Below are positions 2,019 to 23,515 of a stretch of DNA of 42,691 nucleotides, piece after piece. The stretch comes from Mesorhizobium sp. (lineage in GTDB: Bacteria; Pseudomonadota; Alphaproteobacteria; Rhizobiales; Rhizobiaceae). Numbering within the stretch: the first letter of the stretch is position 1; the number at the start of each line of letters is the position of its first letter. The translations under genes were made by a program, and so were the position numbers. The stretch lies in assembly GCF_017306585.1 (NCBI RefSeq), contig NZ_JAFKIC010000140.1:1-42691 (forward strand), in the 5' to 3' direction. A model generated the notes under the pieces. It was not told where the DNA came from, did not search any database, and saw only the letters and a list, made by a program, of their open reading frames with translations.

Positions 2019-2035
2019 ATCTGGTAGGACCAGAT
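2019..2035. promoter_or_regulatory. FadR/GntR-type operator, site 1
   Basis: ATCTGGTAGGACCAGAT has perfect 7-bp arms around a 3-bp centre and fits TGGTNNNACCA, the consensus known for FadR-subfamily GntR regulators. It lies 163 bp upstream of the M24 start. The likely binder, by inference, is the FadR-type regulator at 20381-21100. Confidence 0.75.
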
Positions 2036-2094
2036 TTGTCATTGCGCAGGCGGATGGCGGCTTTGTGGCCGTCATCACATGCTCTTGGTGTATT

Positions 2095-2109
2095 TCTGGC
2101 TAGACCAGA
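2095..2109. promoter_or_regulatory. FadR/GntR-type operator, site 2 (one mismatch)
   Basis: TCTGGCTAGACCAGA matches the same palindrome with one arm mismatch (C where T is expected). It lies 89 bp upstream of the M24 start and forms a pair with the site at 2019-2035. Confidence 0.6.
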
Positions 2110-2197
2110 GAAGGCAAAATGGTGCAGATTTGACCGCAAGCCATCGGATGGGATGCGAAACAGCGCCGATCCACCGGCAATTCAGGGAGAGAGAAAG

Positions 2198-3388
2198 ATG
2201 AACATTGCTCCGGGCAAGAGTGCCGTCAGCAATCTGCCATTCGATCAGGCAAGGGTCGACAGGCTGATGGAGGATGCCGGCATCGATGTGCTGCTGGCCA
2301 CTTCCAAGCACAACACGCAGTACCTTCTGGGTGGCTACAAGTTCATCTTCTTCGCCGCCATGGATGCGATCGGCCACAGCCGCTATTTGCCGATCCTGGT
2401 CTACGAGAAGGGCGGCCCGGATCACGCCGCCTATATCGGCAACCGCATGGAGGGTGGCGAGCACCAGAACCATCCGTTCTGGACGCCGACGCTGCACGCC
2501 GCCTGCTGGGGCACGCTCGATGCGGCCAACCTCGCGGTCGAGCACATCAGAAAGATCGGCAGGGAGGGAGCGCGTATCGGCATCGAGCCTGGTTTCCTGC
2601 CCTCTGACGCCTATGCGCTGATCCGCAAGGCGCTGCCCGACGCCAGGCTGATCGACGCGACCGGCATGCTGGAGACCATGCGCGCCATCAAGACCGATGC
2701 CGAGCTGGAGAAGCTGCGCACCGCGTCCGAACTCATCACAGATTCCATGCTGGCGACCATCGCCTGGGCGCGCGAAGGCACGACCAAGGCCGAGATGATC
2801 GAGCAGATCCGGCGCGAGGAGACCAATCGCGGCGCGCATTTCGAATATTGCCTGCTGACGCTGGGTTCCAGCCACAACCGTGCCGCCTCATCGCAGGCCT
2901 GGAAGAAGGGCGAGGTGCTGTCGATCGATTCCGGCGGCAATTATCACGGCTATATCGGCGACCTCTGCCGGATGGGCATTCTGGGCGAGCCGGACGCCGA
3001 GCTGGAAGACTTGCTGGCCGAAGTGGAGACGGTGCAGCAGGCCGCCTTCTCCAAGGTGAAGGCGGGCATTCTGGGCGGCGACATGATCTCGCATGCGGAG
3101 GGCGTGCTGAAGGCGTCGAAGGTCGCGCCCTATACGGATTTCTTCGCTCACGGCATGGGCCTGATCACGCATGAGGCGCCGTTCCTGATGACCAATCATC
3201 CGGTGACTTACGAGGGCACCTACGCGGCCAAGCCGCTGGAGAGGAACATGGTGCTGTCGGTGGAAACGACCATGCTTCACCCGACGCGCGGCTTCATCAA
3301 GCTGGAGGACACGCTGGCGGTGACGGACACCGGCTATGTGATGTTCGGGGACCGGGGGCGCGGGTGGAACAGGGGTGGGACGGCTTAG
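2198..3388 (+). CDS. M24 family metallopeptidase, creatinase/Xaa-Pro dipeptidase-like
   Basis: This 396-residue cytosolic pita-bread hydrolase has an N-terminal creatinase-type domain (about 1-160) and a C-terminal M24 catalytic domain. All five metal ligands of the peptidase form are present: D244 (SIDSGG), D255 (GDLCR), H318 (AHGMGL), E356 (SVETT) and E370 (KLEDT). A metal-dependent peptidase is therefore more likely than a creatinase, which lacks metal. The frame stays open upstream to 1907, but the ATG at 2198 is preceded by AGGGAGAG and begins the conserved part. Two FadR-type operators precede it, which ties it to the sugar genes at 7.4 and 19-27 kb. It may cleave Xaa-Pro dipeptides or amide-linked conjugates; the substrate is unknown. 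Confidence 0.9.
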   Translation: MNIAPGKSAVSNLPFDQARVDRLMEDAGIDVLLATSKHNTQYLLGGYKFIFFAAMDAIGHSRYLPILVYEKGGPDHAAYIGNRMEGGEHQNHPFWTPTLHAACWGTLDAANLAVEHIRKIGREGARIGIEPGFLPSDAYALIRKALPDARLIDATGMLETMRAIKTDAELEKLRTASELITDSMLATIAWAREGTTKAEMIEQIRREETNRGAHFEYCLLTLGSSHNRAASSQAWKKGEVLSIDSGGNYHGYIGDLCRMGILGEPDAELEDLLAEVETVQQAAFSKVKAGILGGDMISHAEGVLKASKVAPYTDFFAHGMGLITHEAPFLMTNHPVTYEGTYAAKPLERNMVLSVETTMLHPTRGFIKLEDTLAVTDTGYVMFGDRGRGWNRGGTA

Positions 3389-3407
3389 CTGGCGAAGGTC
3401 GGCGTTG

Positions 3408-3557
3408 CCCCCTCACCCGGATTGCCGAGGCCGAAATTGCGAAGTGCAATTCGGGGCAATCCGACCTCTCCCCGAGGGGAGAGGAGGTGGCAGACGCTGG
3501 CGCCTTTCTCTTCTCCCCATGGGGAGAAGGTGGCCGCGTAGCGGTCGGATGAGGGGG
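3408..3557. repeat. Intergenic palindromic repeat, family B copy 1
   Basis: This 150-bp element starts CCCCCTCACCCGGATTGCC and ends GCGGTCGGATGAGGGGG. Inside are nested hairpins such as CTCTCCCCGAGGGGAGAG and CTTCTCCCCATGGGGAGAAG. A near-identical copy in the same orientation lies at 26038-26184. It sits between two convergent genes and may also act as a transcription stop. Confidence 0.85.
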
Positions 3558-3577: not shown

Positions 3578-3994
3578 TCACGTCCCCGCCGGGATCAGCC
3601 TGAAATCCGGTAGCTCGCGCAGGCCCAGTTCCGGCCCGGCAGGCGAGTAGACCACAAACAGCTGCATTGGTCCGTCTCCGGTGTTCAGCGTCGAGTGAAA
3701 CCGGCTTTCCGGGACATAGATGGTGCAGCCGGGGCCGACCTTCGCCACCACCGGATTGCCGTTCTCGTCCTCGACCATCTGCTCGCCATTGCCCGAGATG
3801 ACGAAGATGATCTCTTCGGCGCCCGGATGGTTGTGGCGCGTGTGTCCCTTGCCCGACGGCAGGTCGACCACGCCGCCGGAAAAGCGGGTCGCGCCGTTGA
3901 CCTCGGGCGCCACCGTCAGCGACAGTTTTCCCCAGTCGAAGCCGAAGGCGCTGACATCCTTCGGATAGACGAACACCTTGCTCTTGTCGCTCAT
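3578..3994 (-). CDS. Cupin domain protein
   Basis: This 138-residue single-domain cupin contains the HNHPGAEEIIFVISGNGE stretch (about residues 52-69), which matches cupin motif 1 with its His/Glu metal ligands. Motif 2 is around PESRFHSTLNTGD (about 97-109) and has the later His. It is the last gene of a leftward three-gene operon. The TGA of the TIM-barrel gene lies 4 bp before this ATG, and AGGGGTGATGAC supplies the ribosome site. Longer upstream starts would run into the neighbour and were rejected. A small-molecule isomerase, a dioxygenase or a sensor role are all possible; the operon partners do not settle it. Confidence 0.85.
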   Translation of the reverse strand: MSDKSKVFVYPKDVSAFGFDWGKLSLTVAPEVNGATRFSGGVVDLPSGKGHTRHNHPGAEEIIFVISGNGEQMVEDENGNPVVAKVGPGCTIYVPESRFHSTLNTGDGPMQLFVVYSPAGPELGLRELPDFRLIPAGT

Positions 3995-3998
3995 GTCA

Positions 3999-4865
3999 TC
4001 ACCCCTTGTTTTTCTTCGCCGTCGTTGTGTCGCCGCCCAGCGTGACGGCCTTGAAGTCAGCGGTCTGCCTGGCGATCGCGGCCTCCGCCGGCAGGCGCTC
4101 CATCGAGCTTGCGCCATAGAAGCCGTGCAGGCCCTTGGCCCGGGAAAGGATGTAGCGGGCGTCGTCCGGCATCGAGATCGGTCCGCCATGGCAAAGCAGG
4201 ATGACGTCCTTGCGCACCGAGCGCGCCGCCTCGGCGATGGCGTCGATGGCCACGACGCAGTCGTCGAGCGACTTGGCCGACGTCGCGCCGATCGAGCCGC
4301 CTGTCGTCACGCCCATATGAGCGACGACGATGTCGGCGCCGGCTTTTGTCATGGCGCGCGCCTCGTCCGAGTTGAAGACATAGGGCGTGGTCAAGAGGTC
4401 GAGCTTGTGCGCCTCGGCGATCATGTCGACCTCGAGCCCGAAGCCCATGCCGGTTTCCTCGAAGCTCTGGCGCATGGTGCCGTCGAACAGGCCGATCGTC
4501 GGAAAATTCTGCACGCCGGAGAAGCCCATCGTCTTCAGTTCCGCCAGGAGCAGCGGCATGATGACGAAGGGGTCGGTGCCATTGACGCCGGCCAGCACCG
4601 GCGTCTTCTTGACCACCGGCAGCACCTCGTAGGCCATTTCCTTGACGATCTCGTTGGCGTTGCCGTAGGCGAGCAGGCCGGCGGCCGAGCCGCGCCCGGC
4701 CATGCGGTAGCGGCCGGAATTGTAGATGATGATGAGGTCAATGCCGCCGGCTTCCTCGGCCTTTGCCGACAGGCCGGTGCCGGCTCCGCCGCCGACGATC
4801 GGCACGCGCTTGTCGATCATGCCCCGGAATTTCTTCAATATGTCCTTGCGCGGAATTGCCGGCAT
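3999..4865 (-). CDS. PEP-hydrolase-like TIM-barrel protein (Tm-1 C-terminal domain homologue)
   Basis: This 288-residue protein belongs to the PEP_hydrolase / TIM-barrel signal transduction family. Recognisable segments are [21 protein letters not shown] (split over about residues 21-41), [17 protein letters not shown] (about 44-60), [10 protein letters not shown] (about 91-100) and [13 protein letters not shown] (about 179-191). In plant and fungal Tm-1 proteins this domain is fused behind the UPF0261 domain, which here is the separate upstream gene 10 bp away. The bacterial function is not established. The class II aldolase/PEP-mutase-like fold suggests an enzyme on a small carbonyl or carboxylate compound. 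Confidence 0.85.
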
Positions 4866-4875
4866 GTCTGGTCTC

Positions 4876-6072
4876 TCACTGTCTGGCGATGTCGAGAAAG
4901 GCCGCGACGGCGGCCCTGGCGAATTCGGGATCGTTGATATGCAGGGGCAGGCGCGTCACACGGCGCCTGCCGTTCGGCTTGATGGCGCGCTCGATGGCGT
5001 CGAACAGGACGGCATCGGCCTCCGGGTCGAAAAAGGCTCCGCCTTCGATGTCGAGCGCCGAGACGCCTTTTTCGGGAATGAGAAAGTGCACCGGCCCGTC
5101 GCAGAGGGCTAGCCTGGCGCCGATCCATTCGCCGATCGCACGGCATTCGTCCGCCGTCGTGCGCATCAGGGTGACGTTCGGGTTGTGCTCATAGAAGAGC
5201 CGGTCCCGATAGCGTTCCGGGATCGTGGCAGGCGCCCAGAAATTCACCATGTCCAGCGCACCGACCGAGCCGACATAGGGCAGGCCGGTGCGGGCGATGG
5301 CGCCCAAGCGATCTTCGGTCGCCGGCAGCACGCCGCCGAAGAGGAGATCGCAGACTTCGGTCGTGGTGATGTCGATGACGCCGGAGAGCAATCCGCTGTC
5401 GGCCAGTTTCTCCATGCTGCGGCCGCCGGTGCCAGTGGCGTGGAAGACCATGCAGTCATAGGTGGAACGAAGCTGGTCGGCGATCGCGGTCACGCATGGC
5501 GTGGTGACGCCGAACATGGTGAGCCCGATCGACGGTTTGCCTTCCGCCGGCGGCGCGGGTCTGGCCGCCATGCCGGCGATCGCCTGGGCGGCATTGTGCA
5601 GCACGACGCGCGAGAGCCGGTTGAGGCCCGCCATGTCGGTCACAGCAGGCATCATGACGATGTCGGAGACGTCGACATAGGGAGCGGTGTCGCCCGACGC
5701 GAGCGTCGAGACCATGATCTTGGGCAGGCCGAGCGGCAGCGCGCGCATGCCGGCTGTGATGATCGAGGTGCCGCCGCCGCCGCCAATGCCGATGACGGCG
5801 GCAATGTCGTTTCGTGACGGCATGAAGTGCGCGAAGGCCGTGCCCATCGCGGCGACCGCGGCGCCGCGATCATTGCCGCCCAGCACGGCGTCGCGGCCGT
5901 CTGGATGGCAGCCGGCAACCTCCTTCGCGGCAACGTCTACCGGAACGGTCGCCTCGCGTGTTCCAACATCGACGCGGATGACGGCGGCGCCCGTGGCGGC
6001 GATCGTATCGGCGAGGAAGGCGAGCTCCTCGCCCTTGGTGTCGGCGGTGCCCACGACGTAGATGCGCTTCAT
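4876..6072 (-). CDS. Tm-1-like ATP-binding domain protein (UPF0261)
   Basis: This 398-residue protein begins [17 protein letters not shown], the UPF0261 signature. It carries a glycine-rich [10 protein letters not shown] segment at about residues 94-103 and [21 protein letters not shown] (split, about 116-136), also diagnostic. The homologous N-terminal half of tomato Tm-1 binds ATP and inhibits tobamovirus replication protein; the bacterial role is unknown. It is the first gene of the leftward operon with the TIM-barrel and cupin genes, and the first two equal a split Tm-1. It is divergent from a TetR gene across a 302-bp region that holds a family A repeat. Confidence 0.88.
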
Positions 6073-6340: not shown

Positions 6341-6368
6341 TTGCAAATTTTTGAGACGCGCGTATCGT
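6341..6368 (+). promoter_or_regulatory. Candidate promoter for a leaderless TetR transcript
   Basis: TTGCAA (6341-6346) and TATCGT (6363-6368) are separated by 16 bp, and the ATG at 6375 lies 7 bp past the -10, where transcription would start. No ribosome site sits properly before that ATG. This is inference from spacing only. Confidence 0.35.
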
Positions 6369-6374
6369 ATTGGT

Positions 6375-7070
6375 ATGGATGTCTCACGTCAACAAGCCCG
6401 ATCTAGCGACGGGACTGAACCGGCCGGCGGTCCCACACCAGAGCGCGGACCTCGCGCGCGCACCAAGCGTCTGATGCTGGAGACGGCGACTCGGCTGATG
6501 CAGGCGGGTGTCACGCCCTCGGTCAGCGAAGTCGCGGAGGCGGCGGAAGTCTCCCGCGCCACCGCCTATCGCTATTTCCCGAGCCAGGCGGCTCTCGTGC
6601 AGGCGGTCGTCGACGAAGGGCTCGGGCCTATCCTGACCTGGCAATCGACTTCCACCGATGCCGAGCGCCGGGTCAGGGAACTGTTTGACACGGCCATGCC
6701 GCGCATCGAGGCGTTCGAGGCGACGTTCAAGGCGGCGCTGAAACTTTCGCTCGATCAATGGGCGCGGCGCCAGGCCGGCACTCTGGGCGGTGAACCAGCC
6801 TTCACGCGCGGCCATCGCGTCGACCTGCTGAAGCAGGCGATCGCGCCGCTCAAGGGCAGCCTGCCGCCGCGCGACTTCAAGCGGCTGGCGCAGGCCTTGT
6901 CGTTGATCTTCGGCGTCGAGGTGCTGATCGTGCTCAAGGATATCTGGGGTCTGGACAGCCGCGGGACGCGATCCGTCGCGCAATGGGCGGCCGGAGCCCT
7001 GGTGCGCGCCGCGGTCGCGGAATCGATCGAGGGTGGCGACAGCAACGATCCGACGGTAGCTGCAGAATAG
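6375..7070 (+). CDS. TetR/AcrR family transcriptional regulator
   Basis: This 231-residue repressor has an N-terminal TetR helix-turn-helix: SVSEVAEAAEVSRATAYRYFPSQ-type core at about residues 44-66, with the recognition helix around SRATAYRYF. The remaining part is a variable ligand-binding domain. The ATG at 6375 was chosen over a TTG at 6351, because a GAGGAGG at 6331-6337 is too far from either to decide and a promoter-like pair places the transcript start at 6375. It is divergent from the Tm-1-like operon, its probable target. Its stop lies 9 bp before the operator preceding the CUT1 transporter operon, so it could control that too. Confidence 0.85.
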   Translation: MDVSRQQARSSDGTEPAGGPTPERGPRARTKRLMLETATRLMQAGVTPSVSEVAEAAEVSRATAYRYFPSQAALVQAVVDEGLGPILTWQSTSTDAERRVRELFDTAMPRIEAFEATFKAALKLSLDQWARRQAGTLGGEPAFTRGHRVDLLKQAIAPLKGSLPPRDFKRLAQALSLIFGVEVLIVLKDIWGLDSRGTRSVAQWAAGALVRAAVAESIEGGDSNDPTVAAE

Positions 7071-7075: not shown

Positions 7076-7092
7076 ATCTGGTTCGACCAGAT
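7076..7092. promoter_or_regulatory. FadR/GntR-type operator, site 3
   Basis: ATCTGGTTCGACCAGAT has perfect 7-bp arms with a 3-bp centre. The arms are identical to those of site 1 at 2019-2035. It lies directly after the TetR stop and about 340 bp upstream of the transporter start, paired with the site at 7252-7268. Confidence 0.75.
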
Positions 7093-7235
7093 TTTACCGC
7101 CGACTACCAATATTATCCTTGCCGCGACGTGCAGGGCAACACCTCAATGTATCATTGAGTAGGAAAATCATGGGAAAACAGACAGATAATGTCTGAATCC
7201 ACCAGCAATGGGGCTACCTGCCGCCCAAGAAAGAG

Positions 7236-7263
7236 CTTGACGTCGATGCTGAATTGGTAATAC
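7236..7263 (+). promoter_or_regulatory. Candidate sigma-70 promoter of the CUT1 operon overlapped by an operator
   Basis: The box CTTGAC at 7236-7241 resembles rhizobial -35 elements. A TAATAC at 7258-7263 stands 15-16 bp downstream and is embedded in the operator TGGTAATACCA. The same arrangement recurs at 23485-23513, which strengthens both. Repressor binding would block polymerase. Confidence 0.5.
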
Positions 7264-7268
7264 CAGAT
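7252..7268. promoter_or_regulatory. FadR/GntR-type operator, site 4
   Basis: The core TGGTAATACCA (7255-7265) is a perfect 11-bp palindrome; the outer arm matches on the right side only. It sits over the putative -10 of the transporter promoter, 162 bp upstream of the start codon. Confidence 0.7.
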
Positions 7269-7429
7269 CAGAAAAGAAAAGTGGATCGCAGGTGAGGGCT
7301 GCGAACCATTTTCCGGCAGGGCGAGGAGGCCCGGAACCGGAAAGGTGCGATCACGGGAGGAACTACCAGGGCCGGCCCGGTTGCCGGCTCGCATGACACG
7401 GTAGAATGCGCACAAGGGAGGAAATCATT

Positions 7430-8746
7430 ATGCGCAAGTTAGTGACCAGCATGCTTGCTGGTATCGGACTGACGCTTGCCTGCGGAACTTCAGTCTACGC
7501 GCAGGAAAAGTCGCTCACCATCTTCTGGGCGGAGTGGGATCCGGCCAACTACCTGCAGGAACTCGGCAACGAGTACGAGAAGGAAACCGGCGTCAAGATC
7601 ACGGTGGAAACCACGCCCTGGGCCGACTTCCAGACCAAGACCTTCACCGAGTTCAACGCCCATGGCGACGCCTATGACCTGGTCGTCGGCGACTCGCAGT
7701 GGCTCGGCGCCGGCTCGACGGGCGGTCACTATGTCGACCTCACCGACTTCTTCAAGAAACATGACCTCAGCAACGTCATGGCGCCGGCGACGGTGAAATA
7801 TTACGCCGAGTATCCCGGCAACAGCGGCAAGTACTGGGCGATCCCGCTCGAAGGCGACGCCGTCGGCTGGGCTTACCGCAAGGACTGGTTCGAGGACCCG
7901 AAGGAGAAGGAAGCCTTCAAGGCCAAATACGGTTACGAGCTCGATGTACCGAAGGATTTCAAGGCGCTGCGCGACATCGCCGAATTCTTCTACCGGCCCG
8001 ACCAGAAGCGCTACGGCATCGCCATCTACACCGACAATTCCTATGACGCGATGGCGATGGGCTTCGAGAACGCGCTGTTCTCCTATGGCGGCGAACTGGG
8101 CGACTACGCGACCTACAAGGTCGACGGCCATATCAACTCCGATAAGGCGGTCGCCGCGCTCGACGCCTACAAGGAACTCTACAAGTTCACGCCTCCGGGC
8201 TGGGCCAAGACCTTCTTCGTCGAAGACAACCAGGCGATCACCGAGAACCTGGCCGCGATGAGCATGAACTTCTTCGCCTTCTTCCCCTCGCTGATCAACG
8301 AGGCGTCGAACCCGAATGCCAAGAACACTGGTTTCTTCGCCAATCCGGCCGGTCCGCATGGCGATCAGTTCGCGGCCCTTGGCGGCCAGGGCATCTCCGT
8401 CGTCTCCTACTCGCAGAAGCAGGACGAGGCGATGAAGTTCCTGGAGTGGTTCATCAAGGACTCGACACAGAAAAGGTGGGCTGAGCTTGGCGGTTACACC
8501 TGCAGCCAGGCGGTGCTGAAGTCGGCCGAGTTCCAGAACGCCACGCCCTACAACAAGGCCTTCTACGAGACCATGTTCAAGGTGAAGGACTTCTGGGCTG
8601 TGCCGGAATACGCCGAACTGCTGCAGCAGCTCAACCAGCGCATCTATCCCTACATGATCGGCGGCAGCGGCACCGCCAAGGAGACGCTGGACGCGCTTGC
8701 CGCCGACTGGAACGCGACCTTCAAGAAATACGGCCGCGTCCAATAA
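7430..8746 (+). CDS. Sugar ABC transporter substrate-binding protein (CUT1, family 1)
   Basis: This 438-residue periplasmic binding protein has a Sec signal peptide (MRKLVTSMLAGIGLTLACG, cleavage near VYAQ-EKS). The mature N-terminus LTIFWAEWDPANYLQEL, the segment TFTEFNAHGDAYDLVVGDSQ and the C-terminal hinge region are typical of SBP_bac_1 proteins for sugars, polyols or glycosides. The ATG at 7430 has a good AAGGGAGGA site; an ATG 24 bp upstream lacks one. It is the first gene of a six-gene operon. A terminator-like hairpin after it should leave more of this protein than of the membrane parts. Two FadR-type operators precede it. Confidence 0.93.
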   Translation: MRKLVTSMLAGIGLTLACGTSVYAQEKSLTIFWAEWDPANYLQELGNEYEKETGVKITVETTPWADFQTKTFTEFNAHGDAYDLVVGDSQWLGAGSTGGHYVDLTDFFKKHDLSNVMAPATVKYYAEYPGNSGKYWAIPLEGDAVGWAYRKDWFEDPKEKEAFKAKYGYELDVPKDFKALRDIAEFFYRPDQKRYGIAIYTDNSYDAMAMGFENALFSYGGELGDYATYKVDGHINSDKAVAALDAYKELYKFTPPGWAKTFFVEDNQAITENLAAMSMNFFAFFPSLINEASNPNAKNTGFFANPAGPHGDQFAALGGQGISVVSYSQKQDEAMKFLEWFIKDSTQKRWAELGGYTCSQAVLKSAEFQNATPYNKAFYETMFKVKDFWAVPEYAELLQQLNQRIYPYMIGGSGTAKETLDALAADWNATFKKYGRVQ

Positions 8747-8760
8747 TCCTTCATGTCCCG

Positions 8761-8795
8761 CGGAGGGGGCAGCACTGCCTCCTCCGTTCTTTTTT
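8761..8795 (+). terminator. Rho-independent terminator/attenuator after the binding-protein gene
   Basis: CGGAGGGGGCAG (8761-8772) pairs with CTGCCTCCTCCG (8775-8786), giving up to 12 pairs with one G-U. TTCTTTTTT follows at 8787-8795. It lies 15 bp after the binding-protein stop and before the first permease. Partial read-through would set the usual excess of binding protein. Confidence 0.85.
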
Positions 8796-8831
8796 GAAAC
8801 GGGGGCAGAGTCCTTTTAAAGGGAGCAGGTC

Positions 8832-9737
8832 TTGGCGACCACGATGATCACCACGCTCGACAGGTCCTCGCGCGCCGCGGCACGCGGCCTGAGCGACATT
8901 TCCATCCGCAATCTCTTCATCATCCCGACGGTTCTGTTCCTGATCGTCTTCAACATCTTTCCGCTGATCTATTCGCTCGGCTATTCCTTCACGGATTTCC
9001 GCGCGTCGACCAACGCGCCGGCGAATTTCGTCGGACTGCAGAACTACCGCGACCTGCTCAACGATCCCTATGTCTGGGCGAACTTCGCCATCACCGCGAA
9101 ATACGTCATCATCTCGGTCGCAGGGCAGTTGCTGGTTGGCTTCGGCGTGGCGATGCTGCTCAACCGCGACATTCCGCTCAAGGGTCTCATCACCACCTTG
9201 CTGCTGCTGCCGATGATGCTGTCGATGGCGGTCGTCGGGCTGTTCTGGAAACTGCTCTATGATCCGTCATGGGGCGTCATCAACTACGCGCTCGGGCTTG
9301 GCAATTTCGAGTGGCTGGCCGACCCCAAGATGGCGCTCTACGCCGTCGCGCTGACCGACATCTGGATGTGGTCGCCCTTCGTCATGCTGTTGTCGCTGGC
9401 CGGCCTGTCGGCGGTGCCGAAGCATCTCTACGAAGCAGCCGCGATCGATCGCGCCGGGCCGTTCTACACCTTCTTCCGCATCACGCTGCCGCTGGTGGCG
9501 CCGATCCTGATGATCGCCGTCATCTTCCGCACCATGGAAGCGTTCAAGACCTTCGACCTCGCCTACATCCTGACCAGCCAGCCGACGGCGGAGCTGATCT
9601 CCATCAGGCTATACAAGATGGCGTTCCAGGAATGGCAGACGGGGCGCTCCTGCGCGATGGCCTACATCGTGCTGATCATGGTCCTGGCGATCACCAACAT
9701 CTACGTCAAATACCTCAACAAGGTGAAGGAGCGCTGA
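8832..9737 (+). CDS. Sugar ABC transporter permease, MalF/UgpA type
   Basis: This 301-residue inner-membrane protein has about six membrane segments (the first at about residues 28-48). The EAA loop is at about residues 200-217 (HLYEAAAIDRAGPFYTFF), where it contacts the ATPase. The start is TTG at 8832, placed 6 bp after GGGAG; an in-frame ATG at 8844 is the alternative. It pairs with the next permease to form the transmembrane channel of the CUT1 importer. Confidence 0.92.
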   Translation: MATTMITTLDRSSRAAARGLSDISIRNLFIIPTVLFLIVFNIFPLIYSLGYSFTDFRASTNAPANFVGLQNYRDLLNDPYVWANFAITAKYVIISVAGQLLVGFGVAMLLNRDIPLKGLITTLLLLPMMLSMAVVGLFWKLLYDPSWGVINYALGLGNFEWLADPKMALYAVALTDIWMWSPFVMLLSLAGLSAVPKHLYEAAAIDRAGPFYTFFRITLPLVAPILMIAVIFRTMEAFKTFDLAYILTSQPTAELISIRLYKMAFQEWQTGRSCAMAYIVLIMVLAITNIYVKYLNKVKER

Positions 9738-9738
9738 G

Positions 9739-15557: not shown

Positions 15558-15582
15558 CCCGAGAACCATCATGGTTCTCGGG
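15558..15582. terminator. Hairpin between convergent MFS and TetR genes
   Basis: CCCGAGAACCAT (15558-15569) and ATGGTTCTCGGG (15571-15582) form a perfect inverted repeat around one base. The right arm overlaps the last codons of the leftward TetR gene. Neither flank is T-rich, so termination by a pure hairpin is uncertain. Confidence 0.5.
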
Positions 15583-16147
15583 CCGTTGTCGTTGTCATGG
15601 CGGCAACGAAGCGGTTGAGGCTGTCCTCGACATAGACGGCCACTTCGATCGCCGGGTCGAAACTCCACCACAACAGCGATCCCTGCCAGTGCGACGCCAT
15701 CAGCAGGCCGATGTCGCGCGGCGTGCCCTTTGTCGACGCGAAGCAGGCCGCCAGCGCATCGCACAGCGATATCCTCCAGGTGGCGCCGCGTGCCCTGAGC
15801 AGGGGATCACGCAGATCCTCGCGCAAGACAAGCAGGCCTTCGGCATAGGACTCGATGCCGCCATAGCCTTGCGACAACCCCACCAGCAATTCGATCGCGC
15901 CCGCTGGGGTCCCTGGCACGCCGGCTGCCAGTGTTCTTGTCTTTTCGTCGAGGCCATCCCAGGCCTGCAACAAGGCGCGCTGCTTCAACCGGGCCTTGTT
16001 GCCGAAGCGCTGAACCAGCGTTGCGCCAGACAGGCCACAAGCCTTTGACAGCCGTTCGAAGGTGAGCGCCTCCGGGCCGTGGTCGTGGATCAACCGCAAC
16101 GCGGCTTCGAGCACCTGTCCATCAGACTGCGTCTTGGGTCGTGTCAT
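15569..16147 (-). CDS. TetR/AcrR family transcriptional regulator
   Basis: This 192-residue regulator has the TetR helix-turn-helix at about residues 28-50 (TFERLSKACGLSGATLVQRFGNK). The rest is a helical ligand-binding domain. It is divergent from the SDR gene at 16243, with only 95 bp between them, so the SDR is its probable target. Confidence 0.85.
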   Translation of the reverse strand: MTRPKTQSDGQVLEAALRLIHDHGPEALTFERLSKACGLSGATLVQRFGNKARLKQRALLQAWDGLDEKTRTLAAGVPGTPAGAIELLVGLSQGYGGIESYAEGLLVLREDLRDPLLRARGATWRISLCDALAACFASTKGTPRDIGLLMASHWQGSLLWWSFDPAIEVAVYVEDSLNRFVAAMTTTTAREP

Positions 16148-16172
16148 CTTGACATCTCAATATAACCGAATA

Positions 16173-16188
16173 ATCATTTATATATGAT
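16173..16188. promoter_or_regulatory. Candidate TetR operator between TetR and SDR genes
   Basis: ATCATTTATATATGAT has 5-bp inverted arms (ATCAT/ATGAT) in an AT-rich stretch of the 95-bp divergent gap. It could also contain -10 elements. Assignment is by position only. Confidence 0.35.
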
Positions 16189-16242
16189 GGAAGCCGGTCA
16201 AGCCAGCCCGGTTTGTTCGGCCGGAGCATTTCGGAGAGTTTC

Positions 16243-17151
16243 ATGACATTGCAAGGGAAAGTCGCGCTGGTCGCCGGCGGGACGCGAGGCGCGGGCAGGG
16301 GCATAGCTGTCGAACTGGGCGCCGCCGGGGCAACGGTCTATGTCACCGGGCGAACCACGCGCGCCCGACAATCCGAATATGCCAGGCCCGAAACCATCGA
16401 GGAGACGGCCGAAATGGTCAGCGCGAATGGCGGGCGCGGCATCGCCGTAAGGGTCGACCATCTCATCCCCGACGACGTGCGCGAGCTGGTCGCGCGCATC
16501 CGCGCCGAGCAGGGCCGCCTCGACATCTTGGTCAACGATATCTGGGGCGGCGAGAAGCTGTTCGAGTGGGACAAGCCGGTCTGGGAGCACAATCTGGACA
16601 ATGGCCTGAGGATGTTGCGGCTGGCCATCGACACGCATCTGATCACCGCGCACCACGCGCTGCCGCTGCTGATCGAGCAGCCCGGAGGATTGCTGGTCGA
16701 AATCACCGACGGCACCGCCGAATACAATGCCGCGCACTATCGCCTGTCGCCCTTCTACGATCTCGCCAAGGTCGCGGTGAACCGCATGGCCTGGGCGCAT
16801 GCCAGGGATCTCGCCAAACACGGCGCCACTTCGGTCTCGCTGACGCCGGGCTGGATGCGTTCGGAAATGATGCTGGAGATCTACGGCGTTTCCGAAGAAA
16901 ACTGGCGTGATGCGACCGCGCAGGTGCCGCATTTCGTCATCTCCGAAACGCCCCGCTTTGTCGGCCGAGCCGTCGCCGCCTTGGCGGCGGATCCCGATCG
17001 ATCACGCTGGAACGGACAATCGCTGTCCAGCGGTGGACTGGCCCGAATCTACGGCTTCACCGATCTCGACGGCTCGCGGCCCGATGCCTGGCGCTATGTG
17101 CCGGAAGTCCAGGATGCCGGCAAACCGGCCGATGCGACGGGCTATCGGTAG
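16243..17151 (+). CDS. SDR family oxidoreductase
   Basis: This 302-residue classical-type short-chain dehydrogenase has the cofactor motif AGGTRGAGRGIA at about residues 11-22. TGRTTRAR follows at the end of the second strand, which suggests NADP preference. The catalytic YDLAK (Tyr-x3-Lys) lies near residues 170-178. The usual NNAG is replaced by NDIWGG. The ATG at 16243 has GGAGAG 4-10 bp upstream, and an in-frame ATG 30 bp earlier lacks one. It is divergent from a TetR regulator. Substrate unknown. Confidence 0.9.
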   Translation: MTLQGKVALVAGGTRGAGRGIAVELGAAGATVYVTGRTTRARQSEYARPETIEETAEMVSANGGRGIAVRVDHLIPDDVRELVARIRAEQGRLDILVNDIWGGEKLFEWDKPVWEHNLDNGLRMLRLAIDTHLITAHHALPLLIEQPGGLLVEITDGTAEYNAAHYRLSPFYDLAKVAVNRMAWAHARDLAKHGATSVSLTPGWMRSEMMLEIYGVSEENWRDATAQVPHFVISETPRFVGRAVAALAADPDRSRWNGQSLSSGGLARIYGFTDLDGSRPDAWRYVPEVQDAGKPADATGYR

Positions 17152-17163
17152 AGCAAAATTGCC

Positions 17164-17511
17164 TCAGGCCGAACGCCCGTCGAAGTCGAAGATCGACAGC
17201 GTGGACGGATCGATGCCGTCGAGACATCTGACGTTGATATAGGCGCTGTGCTCCGGACCTTCGCTCACGTCCTCGGCGAAAGGGTGGATGCCGCATGTGC
17301 GGCAGAAACGGTGCGCGATTTTTCCTGCGCCGAATGTGTAACGGCCGAGGTCATCGCCCCAGGCGACGAGGGTCAGCCTGTCATGCGGTACGGCCCACAG
17401 CAGCGCGCCCTTGCGGGCGCAGATCGAGCAGTTGCAGCGCACGACGCCGTCCAGTTCGCCCTCGACCTCGAACGCAACCTTGCCGCAGTGGCAACCGCCT
17501 TTGTACAGCAT
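17164..17511 (-). CDS. GFA-domain (glutathione-dependent formaldehyde-activating/CENP-V) zinc protein
   Basis: This 115-residue protein has the GFA zinc motifs GGCHCGKV (residues 5-12), RCNCSICARKG (about 25-35) and FCRTCGIHPF (about 69-78). It fits the family length of 110-140 residues. Members bind zinc and some bind glutathione. General naming as a formaldehyde-activating enzyme is often not proven. It converges with the SDR gene (12 bp apart) and is divergent from the amidase. Confidence 0.9.
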   Translation of the reverse strand: MLYKGGCHCGKVAFEVEGELDGVVRCNCSICARKGALLWAVPHDRLTLVAWGDDLGRYTFGAGKIAHRFCRTCGIHPFAEDVSEGPEHSAYINVRCLDGIDPSTLSIFDFDGRSA

Positions 17512-17628
17512 CAGTATCTTCCCATCGCTGGCAGGTGCAAAGGCACGCTGGCCGGGTTATCCCTGCAACAAGCCAAATCGGCTGCTTGCTTTTAAAGACG
17601 ATCCATCCTTGCGGGGTCCGACATCGAC

Positions 17629-18924
17629 ATGCAATCAATCCGCGACCGTCTTGAAATCATCCTGTCACGTCTTGCCAATCGCGCGGCGGACGAGAAGGTG
17701 TACACGAAGCTGTATGCCGAGGCCGCACGGGCGGCGGCCGATGCCAGCGATGCCCGCGGCCGGGCCGGCGTGACGCTCGGACCGCTCGACGGTGTCATCG
17801 TCTCGATCAAGGACCTCTTCGATGTCGCGGGAGAGGCGACCACGGCCGGCTCGCTGATGCGCAGGACCGCGGCGCCGGCCCCGCACGATGCCGCCATAGT
17901 CAGCCGGTTGCGGCAGGCCGGCGCGGTCATCATCGGCAAGACCAACATGACCGAATTCGCCTTCACCGCGATTGGCGACAACATGCATTGCGGAACGCCG
18001 GGCAATGCCGTTGACGCCAGCCGCATCCCCGGCGGGTCATCGTCCGGCGCGGGTGTCTCCGTGGGCGAGGGGACCAGCGACATTTCGATCGGCTCCGACA
18101 CGGGCGGCTCGATCCGCATTCCGGCCGCGCTTAATGGTGTCGTCGGCTTCAAGCCGACGGCGCGGCGCGTGCCGCTCTCCGGCGCCTTTCCGCTGTCGGG
18201 CACGCTGGACTCGGTCGGGCCGCTTGCCCGCACCGTTGCCCTCTGTGCCGCCGCCGACGCGGTGATGGCTGGTGAACCACCAAGCGACCTGACGCCGCTG
18301 CCGCTCTCGGGGCTTCGTGTCGGCGTCCCGCGCGGTGTTCTTTTCACGCAGACGGAAAGCGAGGTCGGCGCGGCGTTCGAGCAATGTCTCGGCAAGATCG
18401 GCCGGGTCGGCGCGGGGATATCGGAGCTGTCGATCGACGACCTGATCTCGGATCTGCGCGCGGCGACCAGGCGGGGCTCGATCGCCGCCATGGAAGGGGC
18501 AGAAGTGCATGCCGACTGGCTGGCGACGGGCGCACCGGTTGCGGTCGACCCGCATGTCAGCGGGCCGTTGTCGCGGGCAGCACTGCTGCCCACACCGGTC
18601 TATATCAGGGCGCTGCGCCGCCGCGCCGCACTGGTCGCGGCGATGGATGAGCGGCTGGCGTCATTCGATGTGCTGGTCTTGCCGACCACGCCGGTGACGG
18701 CGCCAAAAATCACGTCGGTGGCCGAAGATGAAGAGCTGCGCGACCACATAGAGGGCCTGCTGTTGCGCAACACCCAGGTCGCCAACCAGTTCGACCTCTG
18801 CGCGATATCGCTGCCGATGCCAGGCATGGCGCTGCCGGCGGGACTGATGCTGGTGGCGCGCAATGGTCATGACCGGCGCCTGCTGAGGATTGCCGCGTCG
18901 ATGGAAGCGTTGCTCGGCTCCTGA
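17629..18924 (+). CDS. Amidase signature family protein
   Basis: This 431-residue hydrolase has a complete Ser-cisSer-Lys triad: K61 (SIKDLF), cis-Ser S137 (PGGSSSGAG) and nucleophile S161 (DTGGSIRIPA). The 24-residue spacing between the serines matches characterised amidases. Relatives include glutamyl-tRNA amidotransferase subunit A, but no gatC or gatB is nearby, so a catabolic amidase is likelier. The ATG at 17629 lacks a strong ribosome site. The 117-bp gap to the GFA gene holds no clear operator. Confidence 0.9.
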   Translation: MQSIRDRLEIILSRLANRAADEKVYTKLYAEAARAAADASDARGRAGVTLGPLDGVIVSIKDLFDVAGEATTAGSLMRRTAAPAPHDAAIVSRLRQAGAVIIGKTNMTEFAFTAIGDNMHCGTPGNAVDASRIPGGSSSGAGVSVGEGTSDISIGSDTGGSIRIPAALNGVVGFKPTARRVPLSGAFPLSGTLDSVGPLARTVALCAAADAVMAGEPPSDLTPLPLSGLRVGVPRGVLFTQTESEVGAAFEQCLGKIGRVGAGISELSIDDLISDLRAATRRGSIAAMEGAEVHADWLATGAPVAVDPHVSGPLSRAALLPTPVYIRALRRRAALVAAMDERLASFDVLVLPTTPVTAPKITSVAEDEELRDHIEGLLLRNTQVANQFDLCAISLPMPGMALPAGLMLVARNGHDRRLLRIAASMEALLGS

Positions 18925-19385: not shown

Positions 19386-20378
19386 CTAGATGTCGAGCGG
19401 AAACCGCCGCCGATAGTGATCGACCACTTCGGGATTGCGCAGATTGACCGGCAGCTTGCCCGCCAGCACCAGCAGCGCTTCGCCGGCGGCGCCAACGCCC
19501 ATGCGCATCATGGATTCCTCGGTAATGCCGGCCATGTGCGGGGTGATGATGACATTGTCGAAGCCGAAATAGGGATGATTTGGCGGCAGCGGCTGTGTTG
19601 AAAACACGTCGAGGGCGGCGCCGCCGATCCGGCCTTCCCGCAAGGCGTCGATCAGCGCGTCGTCGTCTACGACCGGGCCGCGCGACACGTTGATCAACAG
19701 CGCGTTGGGTTTCATGCGGGCAATGCGCTCGCGGCTGATCAGGCCGCGCGTCTCGGGCGTCAGCGGGCAGCACAGCACGATGATGTCGCTCTGCTCGACC
19801 AGCGCGTCGATCGACAGGAAGCCGACCTTCTCCGGCGCCGGCTGCATGCTGCGCGTGGTCGCCACCACCTTCAGGTCGAAGCCGTGCGCGGCGATATGGC
19901 CGACGGCCTGCCCGACGGCGCCAAGGCCGACGATGCCGATGGTCTTGCCGGCGAGCTCGATGTTGGCGTTGGCGTGTTCGCGCCCGGCAAGCCAGCCCTT
20001 GGCCCGCAGGTCGCGGTCTACCCTGCGGAACTGCCGCAGCAGGGCAAGCGCTGCGAACATCACATGCTCGGCGACGGAGCGCGCATTGACCGCAGGAACG
20101 TTGGCCACCAGCACGCCGGCGGCGGCCGCAGCCTCCATCGGTATCATGTCGAGCCCGGCGCCATGGCGGATCGCCGCCCTCAGCTTCCAGGCACCTTCGA
20201 ACAAGGCCGGCGGCAGCGGCGCGCGTACGATGACGATGTCGGCGTCTTTGGCCTCCCGGGTCAAGGTCGCGGCGTCGAGCGCCGAGGCGATGACGAGCTG
20301 ACCGGCGCCGGCAAGCCTGGCCGAAGCGCGTGCGTGCAGCGGGTGGGTCGACAGGATCCTGGGCACGGCCTGCGCCAC
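19386..20378 (-). CDS. D-2-hydroxyacid dehydrogenase family protein
   Basis: This 330-residue NAD(P)-dependent enzyme has the Rossmann motif GLGAVGQAVG (151-160). Catalytic Arg is R233 (VSRGPVV) and His is H281 (TPHMAG). The usual glutamate of the triad, 29 residues after the Arg, is Q262 (DVFSTQPLP). Gln at this position is known in formate dehydrogenases, so activity is not excluded. The start is GTG at 20378, 2 bp after the GntR stop, with AAAAGG upstream. It is the last clear enzyme of the leftward catabolic operon and may reduce a 2-keto acid formed in the pathway. Confidence 0.88.
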   Translation of the reverse strand: MAQAVPRILSTHPLHARASARLAGAGQLVIASALDAATLTREAKDADIVIVRAPLPPALFEGAWKLRAAIRHGAGLDMIPMEAAAAAGVLVANVPAVNARSVAEHVMFAALALLRQFRRVDRDLRAKGWLAGREHANANIELAGKTIGIVGLGAVGQAVGHIAAHGFDLKVVATTRSMQPAPEKVGFLSIDALVEQSDIIVLCCPLTPETRGLISRERIARMKPNALLINVSRGPVVDDDALIDALREGRIGGAALDVFSTQPLPPNHPYFGFDNVIITPHMAGITEESMMRMGVGAAGEALLVLAGKLPVNLRNPEVVDHYRRRFPLDI

Positions 20379-20380: not shown

Positions 20381-21100
20381 TCAGGCCTTTTCGAGCGCCG
20401 GGCCCGAGGGCGCAACCGCCTTGCCGCCTTCGATCAGGCCCTTCCAGTAGCTCTCGGCGCCTTGCAGATGGGCGTTCATCAGCGCCTGGGCGAGATTGCC
20501 GTCGCGGCGCAGCAGCGCTTCGTAGATCTGCACATGCTCGGCATGCGAGCGCACGCTGCGCTCCGGATCGTTGAAATAGATCGGCAGCCGCTGCTCGCCC
20601 ATCAGGTAATAGACGCTGCAGATGTTGTGGAAGACGCCGTTCTTGGTGGCACGCACGATCTCCAGGTGGAACTCGCGGTCTTCCCTGGCGAGCCCTTCGC
20701 CGGCGGCGATGCGCTCTTCGGAGGCTTTCAGGATTTCGCGCAACCGTTCGAAATTCTCCTCGGTGGCGCGCGAACAGGCGAGCTCGGCCGCCTTGATCTC
20801 GTGAATCTTGCGCAACTCGACCGTCTCGTAAATCTGCAGGGGATCGAGCGGCAGGCCCGCGCGGGCGAACAGCGCCAGGGCTTCGACGCTGGCCTGCTTG
20901 GTGTCGATGTAGATGCCCGATTTGGCCCGACGTTCGACGATGCGCATGGCTTCGAGAATGGCGAGCGCCTCGCGGATCTGGCCGCGGCTGACACCGAAAT
21001 GCTCCGCCAGCTCACGTTCGGACGGCGTGCGGCCGCTCTCCTTGTCCGAATGGGAGAACAGATAGGCGGCAAGCTCCGCGAGAAGGTTCTTTTCTTTCAT
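20381..21100 (-). CDS. GntR family transcriptional regulator, FadR/FCD subfamily
   Basis: This 239-residue regulator has an N-terminal winged helix (SERELAEHFGVSRGQIREALAIL, about residues 27-49). The C-terminal FCD helical domain has the usual metal-site residues D141, H145, H189 and H211, which bind small carboxylates or sugar acids in characterised members. The ATG lies 2 bp after the enolase stop. It is the only FadR-type regulator in the window, and six TGGTNNNACCA operators occur at three promoters, so it is the best candidate for their repressor. It would then control its own operon. Confidence 0.9.
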   Translation of the reverse strand: MKEKNLLAELAAYLFSHSDKESGRTPSERELAEHFGVSRGQIREALAILEAMRIVERRAKSGIYIDTKQASVEALALFARAGLPLDPLQIYETVELRKIHEIKAAELACSRATEENFERLREILKASEERIAAGEGLAREDREFHLEIVRATKNGVFHNICSVYYLMGEQRLPIYFNDPERSVRSHAEHVQIYEALLRRDGNLAQALMNAHLQGAESYWKGLIEGGKAVAPSGPALEKA

Positions 21101-21102
21101 CG

Positions 21103-22272
21103 TCAATTGCGTTGCGCGTGCGCCTCCAGGAACCGCTCCGAAATGGTGAATCCCAGACCCGGCCGTTCCGGGATCGCTATCATACCGTCCTTTGCTTCGA
21201 CAGTCTCTTCGATCAAATCGTGGATCATCGGGTTGGCGCCAAGCGAATATTCGACGGTGAAACTCGACGGCGAGGCGGCGCAGACATGCAAGCCGGCGAA
21301 GAAGCAGGGCGCGCCGGCCCATAGATGCGGCGCGAAGCGCAGGTTAAAGGCGCTGGCGATGGCGCCGATCTTCATCGCTTCGCTGATGCCGCCGCAAAAG
21401 GCAGGATCGGGCTGGAAGATGTCGGCGGCCTTGAGCACGGCAAGATCGCGGAAGGCGTAGCGCGTCGCCTCGCTCTCGCCGGTGGCGATCGGGACGGCGC
21501 CCGAGGCGCGCACCTCGGCCATGCCCGGCTTGTCGTCGGCGATGACAGGCTCCTCGAACCAGGCGAGATCGAGATCGCCGACGAGCTGGATGAAACGCTT
21601 GGCTTCGGCCACCGTATAGGTGCCATGCGCGTCGACCATCAGGTCGACATCGGGACCGAGCGCCTGGCGCGCGGCGCGCACGCGGGCGGCCGAGATGTGC
21701 GGGGCGCCGTCCATGGCGCCGACCCGCATCTTCAGCGCCTTGAAGACGCCCTTGGCTATATAGGATTTCAACTGCTCGCCGATCGCATCGGCGGAGGCCC
21801 AGCCGCCGGAGGCATAGGCCTGCATGCGGTCGACCTTGCGGCCGCCGAGCAGCCGCCAGACCGGCTGGCCGAGCGACTTGCCCAGAATATCCCAGAGCGC
21901 GATGTCGACGGCGCTGATTGCGGCAATGCTCATGCCGCGCCGGGCCAGTTGCGGCATGGCGTGGCCGGCGCGCGCGGCGCTGTCATGGCGCACGCCGTTA
22001 TAGAGCATCTCCCAGATGACGCCGATATCGGCCGGGTCACGGCCGATCAACTGCGGCCCGACCTCGTGGTTCAGCATATGGACGAGGGCGCCATAGCTGC
22101 CGGCGCTGCCGGCGGCGTTCTTGCCTTCGCCCCAGCCGACCAGCCCGTCATCGGTCTCGATGCGCAGGATGGCGGCGTCGAAGGTCGTCACCTGGCCGAA
22201 GTCGCTGCGGTGCTGCTTCGCGGCTTCGATCGGGATGCGAACCCACCAGGCCTGGACAGTCTTGATGCGCAT
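21103..22272 (-). CDS. Mandelate racemase/muconate lactonizing enzyme family protein (sugar-acid dehydratase-like)
   Basis: This 389-residue enolase-superfamily enzyme keeps the full active site: K181-x-R183 (LKMRVG), metal ligands D214 (VDAHGT), E240 (WFEEP) and E266 (TGES), and the His-Asp dyad D289/H316 (QPDP, APHLW), 27 residues apart as in mandelate racemase. That places it in the mandelate-racemase group, which includes many sugar-acid dehydratases and some cycloisomerases. It lies 59 bp after the epimerase-like gene and 2 bp before the regulator. The exact acid is unknown. Confidence 0.9.
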   Translation of the reverse strand: MRIKTVQAWWVRIPIEAAKQHRSDFGQVTTFDAAILRIETDDGLVGWGEGKNAAGSAGSYGALVHMLNHEVGPQLIGRDPADIGVIWEMLYNGVRHDSAARAGHAMPQLARRGMSIAAISAVDIALWDILGKSLGQPVWRLLGGRKVDRMQAYASGGWASADAIGEQLKSYIAKGVFKALKMRVGAMDGAPHISAARVRAARQALGPDVDLMVDAHGTYTVAEAKRFIQLVGDLDLAWFEEPVIADDKPGMAEVRASGAVPIATGESEATRYAFRDLAVLKAADIFQPDPAFCGGISEAMKIGAIASAFNLRFAPHLWAGAPCFFAGLHVCAASPSSFTVEYSLGANPMIHDLIEETVEAKDGMIAIPERPGLGFTISERFLEAHAQRN

Positions 22273-22331
22273 ATTCTTCCCCAGCCCTGCCGCCGGCCAC
22301 GGCGGAAGGGCAGATTTCCAACAGACTTCGA

Positions 22332-23219
22332 TTACTTGATCAGCGGCAGCAGCGTTTCGGCGGTGATGCGCATCTGGTCGGTGTAGAATTTCTCGGTCAG
22401 CACGCTGGAGCCGTGGTCCTGGATGAACTTCAGCTGTTCGGGCGAGATGTCGACCGGGTGACGCTCGACCATGTCGGGATAGGGCGCCGCTGGCGTGCGG
22501 TCGACCGGGGCGACGAACTCGTTGGTCAGCGCGCCGTCGTAGCCGACTTCCTTCAGTGTGGCGACGATCCTTGGCCAGTCGATCTGGCCGAGACCGGCGG
22601 CAAAGCGATTGTTGTCGGCGACATGGAAGTCGAACAGCCGCTTGCCGATCTGACGGATCGCGTCGTGGACGTTAAATTCCTCCATGTGAATGTGGTAGGC
22701 GTCGAGGCAGACGCCGCATTCTGGGCTGACCGCATCGGCCAGCGCCAGCGCCTGGGCGCCGCGATTGAACAGATAGGTCTCGAAGCGGTTGAGCGGCTCG
22801 ACGGCGATCTTGACGCCGACCTTCTTGGCGTGGGTGAAGCATTCGCGGGTGGCGTCTACGACCCAACCCCATTCTTCCGCCTCGGTGCCGTCAGGCACCA
22901 CCTTGCCGACGGTCGCGGGGACCAGCGTGATGATCTCGCCATCGAGTTCGCCGACCATGGTCAGCACATCCTTGACGTATTGCACGGAGCGCTCGCGCTG
23001 ACCCTGGTCCCTGGCGGCGAGGTTGCGCTCGCCCAGCATCAGCGTCACCGCGCCCCAGCAGCGTATGCCGTGCTCCTTGAGCAGCGCGCGCGTCTCCTTG
23101 GTCTTGTACTGTTCGGGCTCGCCGGAGATCTCGATCGACTCATAGCCGAATTTCTTGATGCGCTTGAGCGTGGTCTCCAGGGGCTCGGCGCGCATCCAGT
23201 TGTGCGTCGAAAGATGCAT
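22332..23219 (-). CDS. Sugar isomerase/epimerase, D-tagatose 3-epimerase-like (AP endonuclease 2 fold)
   Basis: This 295-residue TIM-barrel protein has metal ligands E141 (VEPLNRFE), D173 (LDAYHIHME), H199 (FHVAD) and E234 (NEF). The last two intervals (26 and 35 residues) match D-tagatose 3-epimerase. The ATG at 23219 has GGAAGGA 6 bp upstream, and the longer frame to 23336 is excluded by that. It is the first gene of the leftward operon, with a FadR-type operator 106 bp upstream. It probably acts on a free keto-sugar or keto-sugar acid. Confidence 0.88.
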   Translation of the reverse strand: MHLSTHNWMRAEPLETTLKRIKKFGYESIEISGEPEQYKTKETRALLKEHGIRCWGAVTLMLGERNLAARDQGQRERSVQYVKDVLTMVGELDGEIITLVPATVGKVVPDGTEAEEWGWVVDATRECFTHAKKVGVKIAVEPLNRFETYLFNRGAQALALADAVSPECGVCLDAYHIHMEEFNVHDAIRQIGKRLFDFHVADNNRFAAGLGQIDWPRIVATLKEVGYDGALTNEFVAPVDRTPAAPYPDMVERHPVDISPEQLKFIQDHGSSVLTEKFYTDQMRITAETLLPLIK

Positions 23220-23324
23220 GGTGTGTCCTTCCCAAATCGTCCGTATGGTTTGCCTGCGACATGCATCGCCGAAAGGCGACGCAAGGGTTCCTCCCCAAGG
23301 CATCCCCAGGCTTTTTCTGCAAAC

Positions 23325-23335
23325 TGGTTCGACCA
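23325..23335. promoter_or_regulatory. FadR/GntR-type operator, site 5
   Basis: TGGTTCGACCA is a perfect core with the same centre (TCG) as site 3 at 7079. It lies 106 bp upstream of the leftward epimerase gene. Confidence 0.72.
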
Positions 23336-23484
23336 ATTGGGCCTAAAACGACCTCTACAGCAAATTCTACCGGACAGCAAGAAGCACGGCAACGCAACTT
23401 TCCGTATGGATTATTTGATTGATTATATTGGGGTATATTCTCCTTTTGCGCGAAGTTTGGCGACCTTTGGCGACTGCTCCTGGG

Positions 23485-23515
23485 CTTGACCATGTGCTTA
23501 TATTTGGTCATACCA
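23485..23515 (+). promoter_or_regulatory. Candidate promoter with FadR-type operator (site 6) over the -10
   Basis: CTTGAC at 23485-23490 stands 14 bp before the operator TGGTCATACCA (23505-23515). TCATAC at 23508-23513 would be the -10, 16 bp after TTGACC. The transporter promoter at 7236 has the same order with 13 bp between box and operator. The operator is 105 bp upstream of the isomerase start. Confidence 0.6.

Follow-up and report, generated by a model that had tools for sequence, protein, structure and literature searches.

Do the short palindromes that lie in three intergenic regions of a single rhizobial contig form one regulon, and which protein would bind them? This question is raised by a 42.7-kb stretch of Mesorhizobium sp. 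DNA (contig NZ_JAFKIC010000140.1; all 42,691 nucleotides are referred to here as the window). An original prediction had assigned six palindromes of the type TGGTNNNACCA to the FadR-type regulator encoded at 20381-21100, joining an M24 peptidase, a CUT1 importer and two divergent catabolic operons into one dispersed sugar regulon. In the explanation that we consider best, and hold to be very likely, the TGGTNNNACCA sites are operators of this regulator, which would repress transcription at three promoter regions.

Six palindromes at three promoter regions

All six palindromes were borne out by direct reading of the sequence. At the M24 peptidase promoter, operator 1 occupies 2019-2035 (ATCTGGTAGGACCAGAT, an exact TGGTNNNACCA palindrome), and the degenerate operator 2 (TGGCTAGACCA) lies 75 bp from it at 2095-2109 (TCTGGCTAGACCAGA, one mismatch; referred to as site 2097). 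The importer promoter has two exact sites, a distal one at 7076-7092 (ATCTGGTTCGACCAGAT) and a proximal one at 7252-7268 (AATTGGTAATACCAGAT), the latter containing a predicted -10 box, TAATAC (7258-7263), that was assigned by eye. Between the divergent operons, the exact site at 23325-23335 would serve the leftward operon with TIM1 and the regulator gene. It is located at about +17 relative to a start that was predicted from elements on the minus strand of the alignment (-10 TGTAGA at 23354-23359 and -35 at 23376-23381, placed by eye). The exact site at 23505-23515, 180 bp from 23325, would be the operator of the rightward operon and overlaps its predicted -10 box (23508-23513). Operator 1 and the distal importer site have identical 7-bp arms, as had been claimed, and the window contains no further exact TGGTNNNACCA.

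The five exact sites in the window compare with 0.21 expected, and 0 of 100 shuffles reached five. When one mismatch was allowed, there were nine matches vs 6.7 expected, and site 2097 scored 7.8 bits vs 24-29 bits for the five exact window sites in a weight matrix built from 98 sites in 20 same-genus genomes. Hence, site 2097 is not significant alone, and it is conservation that supports it. The six sites are real, and their clustering is far beyond chance. The window motif agrees with the FadR-subfamily consensus NyGTM-N0-1-KACNy given in the main text of Suvorova et al. 2015 (PMC4494728). All five exact sites read GT-NNN-AC, from which site 2097 departs with GC-NNN-AC, and the two TTCG-centred sites break the M of the consensus at the first central base.

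Conservation of the operator pairs and of the regulator

Searches at E 1e-60 and E 1e-75 located the regulator in 53/61 same-genus genomes and in 55/247 family genomes, respectively, the latter belonging to 27 of 109 genera. Outside the genus, 36 of the 51 regulator-positive genomes were fetched, covering all 26 other genera. The 64 loci counted were thus the window, 20 same-genus loci, 36 genomes of 26 other genera and 7 plasmid records, and sites were counted across them with the pattern TGG[T/C]NNN[A/G]CCA. Three loci were kept outside all counts, namely those of Shinella (L202) and Pseudorhizobium (L203) and a second S. meliloti record (L200).

Conservation of the sites in relatives was very strong, with pairs seen in 26 genera. 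The importer pair was present in 51/51 scorable loci, defined by an orthologous importer and enough upstream sequence, and both sites were exact in 43 of them; the other 13 loci lacked the first importer gene, had it replaced or did not reach it. The divergent catabolic pair was present in 63/63 scorable loci (52 with both sites exact), the 64th locus (L227, the only one of genus g44) being cut short for this pair. Across 1.49 Mb of the loci, 246 exact sites were counted, only nine of which were not at one of the three promoters, these being defined by orthologous genes. Four of these nine are the importer pairs of two genomes with a replaced importer (G039 and G025), and five lie elsewhere. 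An exact site preceded the M24 gene in 27 of the 28 loci where this gene has its own promoter, with one mismatch in the remaining locus, G039. Where M24 ends the UPF0261 operon, 0/17 loci had an exact site within 200 bp upstream, and the other 19 loci were unscorable. Sites at M24 are thus limited to lineages in which the gene has a promoter of its own. Of the 20 same-genus loci, 18 had an exact operator 1 (one mismatch in G039; the G034 stretch starts downstream), and site 2097 was kept with it in 16 of the 17 relatives printed, at a spacing of 74-76 bp (absent in G016).

Within Mesorhizobium, the spacing was 176 bp for the importer pair and 180 bp for the divergent pair in 21/21 loci each (window and 20 relatives), with spacers that were on average 58% and 60% identical, respectively. 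A wider search gave 79 readable loci, some from genomes already counted, in which the divergent spacing was 180 bp in 77, 181 bp in one and 172 bp in one; an 80th locus (L173) was too short. In the same genus, the stretch from the TetR gene to the distal importer site measured 12-211 bp, and other flanking distances varied by 4-9 bp. In G039 (L041) and G025 (L065) the importer was swapped behind the kept pair, with the spacing still 176 bp, and the swapped importer was distantly related, with 28% (binding protein), 41% (permeases) and 40-42% (ATPases) identity. The Shinella locus combines an M24 peptidase, an ABC importer, an enolase-superfamily gene and a FadR regulator of 39% identity, and a single TGGTNNNACCA precedes its importer. 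No TGGTNNNACCA was found in the Pseudorhizobium locus, whose regulator homologue is 36% identical.

The protein encoded at 20381-21100 on the minus strand has a GntR winged helix (PF00392, 44.1 bits, 1.6e-11) and a C-terminal FCD domain (PF07729, 85.1 bits, 6.8e-24), both over cut-off. As originally predicted, it was the only FCD/FadR-type regulator among the 40 scanned predicted window genes, the other regulators being a TetR (6375-7070), an AraC (13138-14160), a second TetR (15569-16147) and a GntR/UTRA protein (38405-39154). Its best match among named genomes, 99% identical, was in Mesorhizobium comanense. In 64 orthologues the recognition region VSRGQ.RE.LAILE was kept down to 56% identity, and VSRGQ.RE together with D141, H145, H189 and H211 was kept at ≥98%. 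We take VSRGQ.RE to be the arginine region of the recognition helix and the four other residues to be FCD metal-type residues.

An operator was found at the regulator's own operon in 63/63 scorable loci. Moreover, a promoter-operator signature, TTGAC-N12/13-TTGGTNATACCAGA, occurred once or twice each in 54 of the 61 same-genus genomes, comprising 53/53 regulator-positive and 1/8 regulator-negative genomes (the exception, G007, is 86% complete). This co-occurrence supports the link but does not decide it, since genomes that lose the locus tend to lose all of it. Sequence comparison shows the sites, how they are conserved and placed, and their tie to the regulator. The 20381-21100 protein is the likely binder of the TGGTNNNACCA sites. 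The claim that one regulator links M24, the importer and the two divergent operons found the same kind of support, site pairs recurring at the same promoters.

The genome scanned comprises 7.09 Mb, the window being its contig C172, and contains 49 exact TGGTNNNACCA sites, 5 in the window and 44 elsewhere. Equal-scoring sites at unrelated genes would speak against the regulon, but only 2 of the 44 outside sites, C166:17368 (26.7) and C110:95493 (25.7), were in the score range of the window sites and intergenic (automatic ORF call); the next-best outside site scored 13.7 and lay inside coding sequence. One of the two is conserved and the other is not. C110:95493 (L092) lies upstream of a DJ-1/PfpI gene, and at least one TGGTNNNACCA-type site was present upstream in 20/20 DJ-1 orthologues read (L245-L264, including that of the window genome), out of 47 with at least 89% identity. 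Two or more sites were present in 17 of the 20, spaced 73-75 bp apart in 16 and 65 bp in one. The DJ-1 protein of the window genome is 78% identical to the DJ-1 encoded beside the cluster in R. etli, and the distance between the DJ-1 site and the regulator is 61-78 kb in four relatives; in the window's genome the site is on another contig. A separate conserved palindrome, TTATTTCG/CGAAATAA, is found nearer the start in the DJ-1 promoter. The DJ-1 gene is probably a further regulon member, and the circuit is probably larger than the original prediction stated.

The site at C166:17368, which has MgtC and autotransporter-like genes as neighbours, was rejected as a regulon member. Its exact 16-mer had four matches in the 61 genomes: the site itself, the importer's distal operator on the other strand in G038 and G003, and a further match in G013, where the regulator was not found. 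Hence, there was no independent match except in a regulator-negative genome.

Proposed mode of action and rival explanations

Four parts of the explanation are inferred, namely that the protein binds, that it represses and does not activate, that paired sites cooperate or loop, and what kind of ligand is involved. A dimer would bind each TGGTNNNACCA palindrome. At the importer and rightward promoters the proximal operator overlaps the predicted -10 box, where the bound repressor would block RNA polymerase, and in the leftward operon, which contains the regulator gene, the operator just downstream of the predicted start would bring about autorepression. Repression is proposed because these are repressor positions. 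A CTTGAC started 18-20 bp before the TGGT of the proximal importer operator in 51/51 loci (7236-7241, plus strand, in the window) and 19-20 bp before that of the rightward operator in 52/63 loci (23485-23490, plus strand). CTTGAC is the usual rhizobial -35 element, and with a spacer of 15-17 bp it would place TAnnAC, the operator centre, at -10 (assigned by eye). The repressor would leave the DNA when its FCD domain takes up a small ligand, most likely an acidic intermediate of the pathway bound together with a metal ion, and uptake and breakdown would then be switched on together. The second operator of each region, at 75 bp (M24), 176 bp (importer) or 180 bp (divergent), probably acts with the first.

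An alternative competes with this last step, and not with the core of the explanation, namely that each site works alone and a pair is an operator with a redundant copy, involving neither cooperation nor a loop. We rate this as a little short of an even chance. The two divergent operons can each be served by one of the sites between them, and for 71 of 100 FadR-subfamily divergons that have double sites and a regulator gene one site per operon was inferred (main text of Suvorova et al., PMC4494728). Spacing also drifts between genera, with no helical phase. The importer, however, is one operon with two sites, which retain the spacing of 176 bp in 21/21 Mesorhizobium loci despite the 58%-identical spacer and a TetR distance of 12-211 bp, and the distal site was present in 51/51 scorable loci. 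The exact Mesorhizobium spacing and the conservation of the distal site favour cooperation, and the operator pair may loop as does that of Atu1419, an FCD GntR regulator of Agrobacterium fabrum that forms a tetramer and for which DNA loops were seen by electron microscopy (PMC7797058).

More tentatively, the pair could be a durable cassette in which a tetramer bridges the sites over ~17 turns and which outlives the transporter, the regulator having taken in M24 and, tens of kb away, DJ-1, each by a short-spaced pair. This is a possibility that we rather doubt, although in two genomes a distantly related importer does lie behind the same pair.

It is very improbable that a different FadR-family paralogue binds the sites, alone or with the 20381-21100 protein. 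The genome has eleven other matches to the regulator at E 1e-5, and similar consensus sites are common within the FadR subfamily, according to the main text of PMC4494728. However, the best genome paralogues are at most 36% identical to the 20381-21100 protein, whereas the sites stand at the promoter of the operon that encodes it and the signature follows its presence. Activation by the sites is very improbable: some GntR regulators activate certain promoters, but sites on the predicted -10 boxes and downstream of the predicted leftward start are in typical repressor positions.

The neighbouring TetR-family regulator (6375-7070, plus strand; open frame from 6351, start probably ATG 6375; TetR_N 2.7e-08) stands beside the importer promoter in most loci, and site 7076 directly follows its gene. 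The original prediction had left it unweighed; it proved to be another conserved regulator, which has its own element, an inverted repeat TGAGAC/GTCTCA. This repeat was present in 36 of 48 UPF0261/TetR intergenic regions, none of which had an exact TGGTNNNACCA, and was found in no case within 350 bp of the SBP1, TIM1 or M24 starts. In the window it reads TGAGAC-N23-GTCTCA (6352-6386) and is a probable TetR operator. That this TetR binds the TGGTNNNACCA sites, with the GntR protein a bystander, is extremely improbable because three genomes of genus g14 (G301, G073 and G175; 83%, 99% and 99% complete), in which no TetR orthologue was found at E 1e-10 and only 447-456 bp separate UPF0261 from the importer, retain both pairs, albeit with one mismatch in the distal importer site, whereas the equally distant G106 has a TetR orthologue.

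Several observations weigh against repression by the 20381-21100 protein through paired sites. The plain motif is not enriched genome-wide, with 49 sites vs 177 for the backward-read pattern, and a longer pattern with one mismatch gave 9 sites (4 of them window sites) vs 12 for the backward control; the signal therefore consists of clustering and conservation. Site 2097 is low-scoring (7.8 bits). The regulator, the sites and the catabolic genes are mostly present or absent together as one locus, and co-occurrence alone therefore does not distinguish the regulator from other locus members. The 64 loci are related by descent and were selected because they contain the regulator, so the counts do not represent independent events. 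The predicted -10 boxes only weakly match the consensus, and CTTGAC before the rightward operator was not found in 11/63 loci. The pair spacing ranges from 65 to 184 bp across genera, and the 24 distinct spacings, entered by hand, showed no helical phase at periods of 10.0, 10.5 and 11.0 (P 0.13-0.92), where the phasing expected for a short loop is our own expectation and not a published criterion. This argues against a strictly phased loop, and looping is therefore not raised to a conclusion.

The gene set and its known relatives

Gene identities were taken from Pfam and NCBIfam profile scans. The M24-family peptidase gene (2198-3388, plus strand, ATG at 2198) was scanned from the longer frame 1907-3388 and matched Peptidase_M24 (9.2e-31) and Creatinase_N. 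The UPF0261 - PEP_hydrolase-like - cupin operon (3578-6072, minus strand) lies within the cluster but has no FadR-type site and is not assigned to the regulon. The CUT1-type importer (7406-13128, plus strand; Pfam) comprises a binding protein, two permeases and two ATPases. On the minus strand, the leftward operon begins with TIM1, a xylose-isomerase-like TIM barrel (22332-23219), followed by a mandelate racemase/muconate lactonizing enzyme of the enolase superfamily (21103-22272; Pfam) and the regulator. A D-2-hydroxyacid dehydrogenase family gene, also on the minus strand, lies at 19386-20378 (2-Hacid_dh_C 1.8e-59). The rightward genes (23614-27091, plus strand) encode TIM2, a Gfo/Idh/MocA oxidoreductase and TIM3.

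In annotated plasmid records of Rhizobium and Phyllobacterium, a single contiguous block of ~13 kb runs from the cupin gene to TIM1, and in the window the importer and the catabolic part are split by ~6 kb of other genes (13138-18924). Thus, the genes belong together as one set, as had been proposed, but the supposedly dispersed regulon is an interrupted cluster. The insert consists of AraC, MFS, TetR, SDR, GFA and amidase genes and varies among relatives. The label "sugar" was based on names of transporter and enzyme families only; we claim no substrate, as the scans gave families only and the literature search found no characterisation of the cluster.

Further elements were noted in the window. 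A block TATCA..GAGTAGGAAAAT....AAAACAG.CAGATA at 7150-7189, between the importer operators, is conserved in most same-genus genomes. A conserved GCTGGACCAG element at 1983-1992, upstream of M24 operator 1, is possibly part of the promoter of a divergent SBP gene. The region 27190-38179 contains phosphonate uptake and C-P lyase genes, with the GntR/UTRA regulator at 38405-39154 and no sites of the present type.

Of the known systems, Atu1419 is similar in being an FCD regulator from a rhizobial relative and in having, within one promoter region, two palindromes at a distance of 190 bp that overlap -10 boxes, and the window likewise has like palindromes less than 200 bp apart (176 and 180 bp), with the proximal one on a predicted -10 box. 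In contrast, Atu1419 binds the palindrome ATGTATACAT, belongs to the VanR subfamily and targets hydroxycinnamic-acid genes, and its tetramer was measured (PMC7797058). The FadR-subfamily double-site divergons in the main text of Suvorova et al. 2015 (PMC4494728) have the same motif class and the regulator's operon in the divergon, but the window regulon extends to three promoters, two of which lie beyond the divergon of the regulator; that main text, supplementary tables aside, contains no word starting with "rhizobi". The best NCBIfam model for the regulator was NanR (PRK03837), at 95.8 bits vs a cut-off of 260 bits, and NanR was among the sequence matches with solved structures. LldR of E. 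coli, a FadR-family repressor, also has two operators, for which a loop has been proposed, and differs from the window regulator in genes, spacing and ligand. E. coli NanR (PMC8012715) differs in binding a GGTATA repeat and not a spaced palindrome.

The S. meliloti counterpart of the operon is probably SMa1334-1332-1331-1329 (PMC3462710 and PMC8175422), a match made by protein length, gene order and the M24 family name and not by sequence. The M24 gene of S. meliloti lacks a site of its own. The accessible parts of PMC4053727, PMC3333776 and PMC1557990 contained nothing on the gene cluster, and no description of the regulon was found in the open-licence literature, supplementary tables aside.

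Taken together, the comparisons indicate a well-supported regulon of an ordinary, known kind, in which the uptake and breakdown genes of rhizobia are very probably under the control of one FadR-type repressor acting via paired sites. A widespread rhizobial gene set, for whose substrate no description was found, thereby gains a testable regulon, and the regulator's ligand would reveal the pathway. The loci would also offer natural experiments on operator evolution, with spacing that is fixed within the genus and drifts between genera, an importer replaced behind a kept pair, and M24 operators only where the gene has its own promoter.

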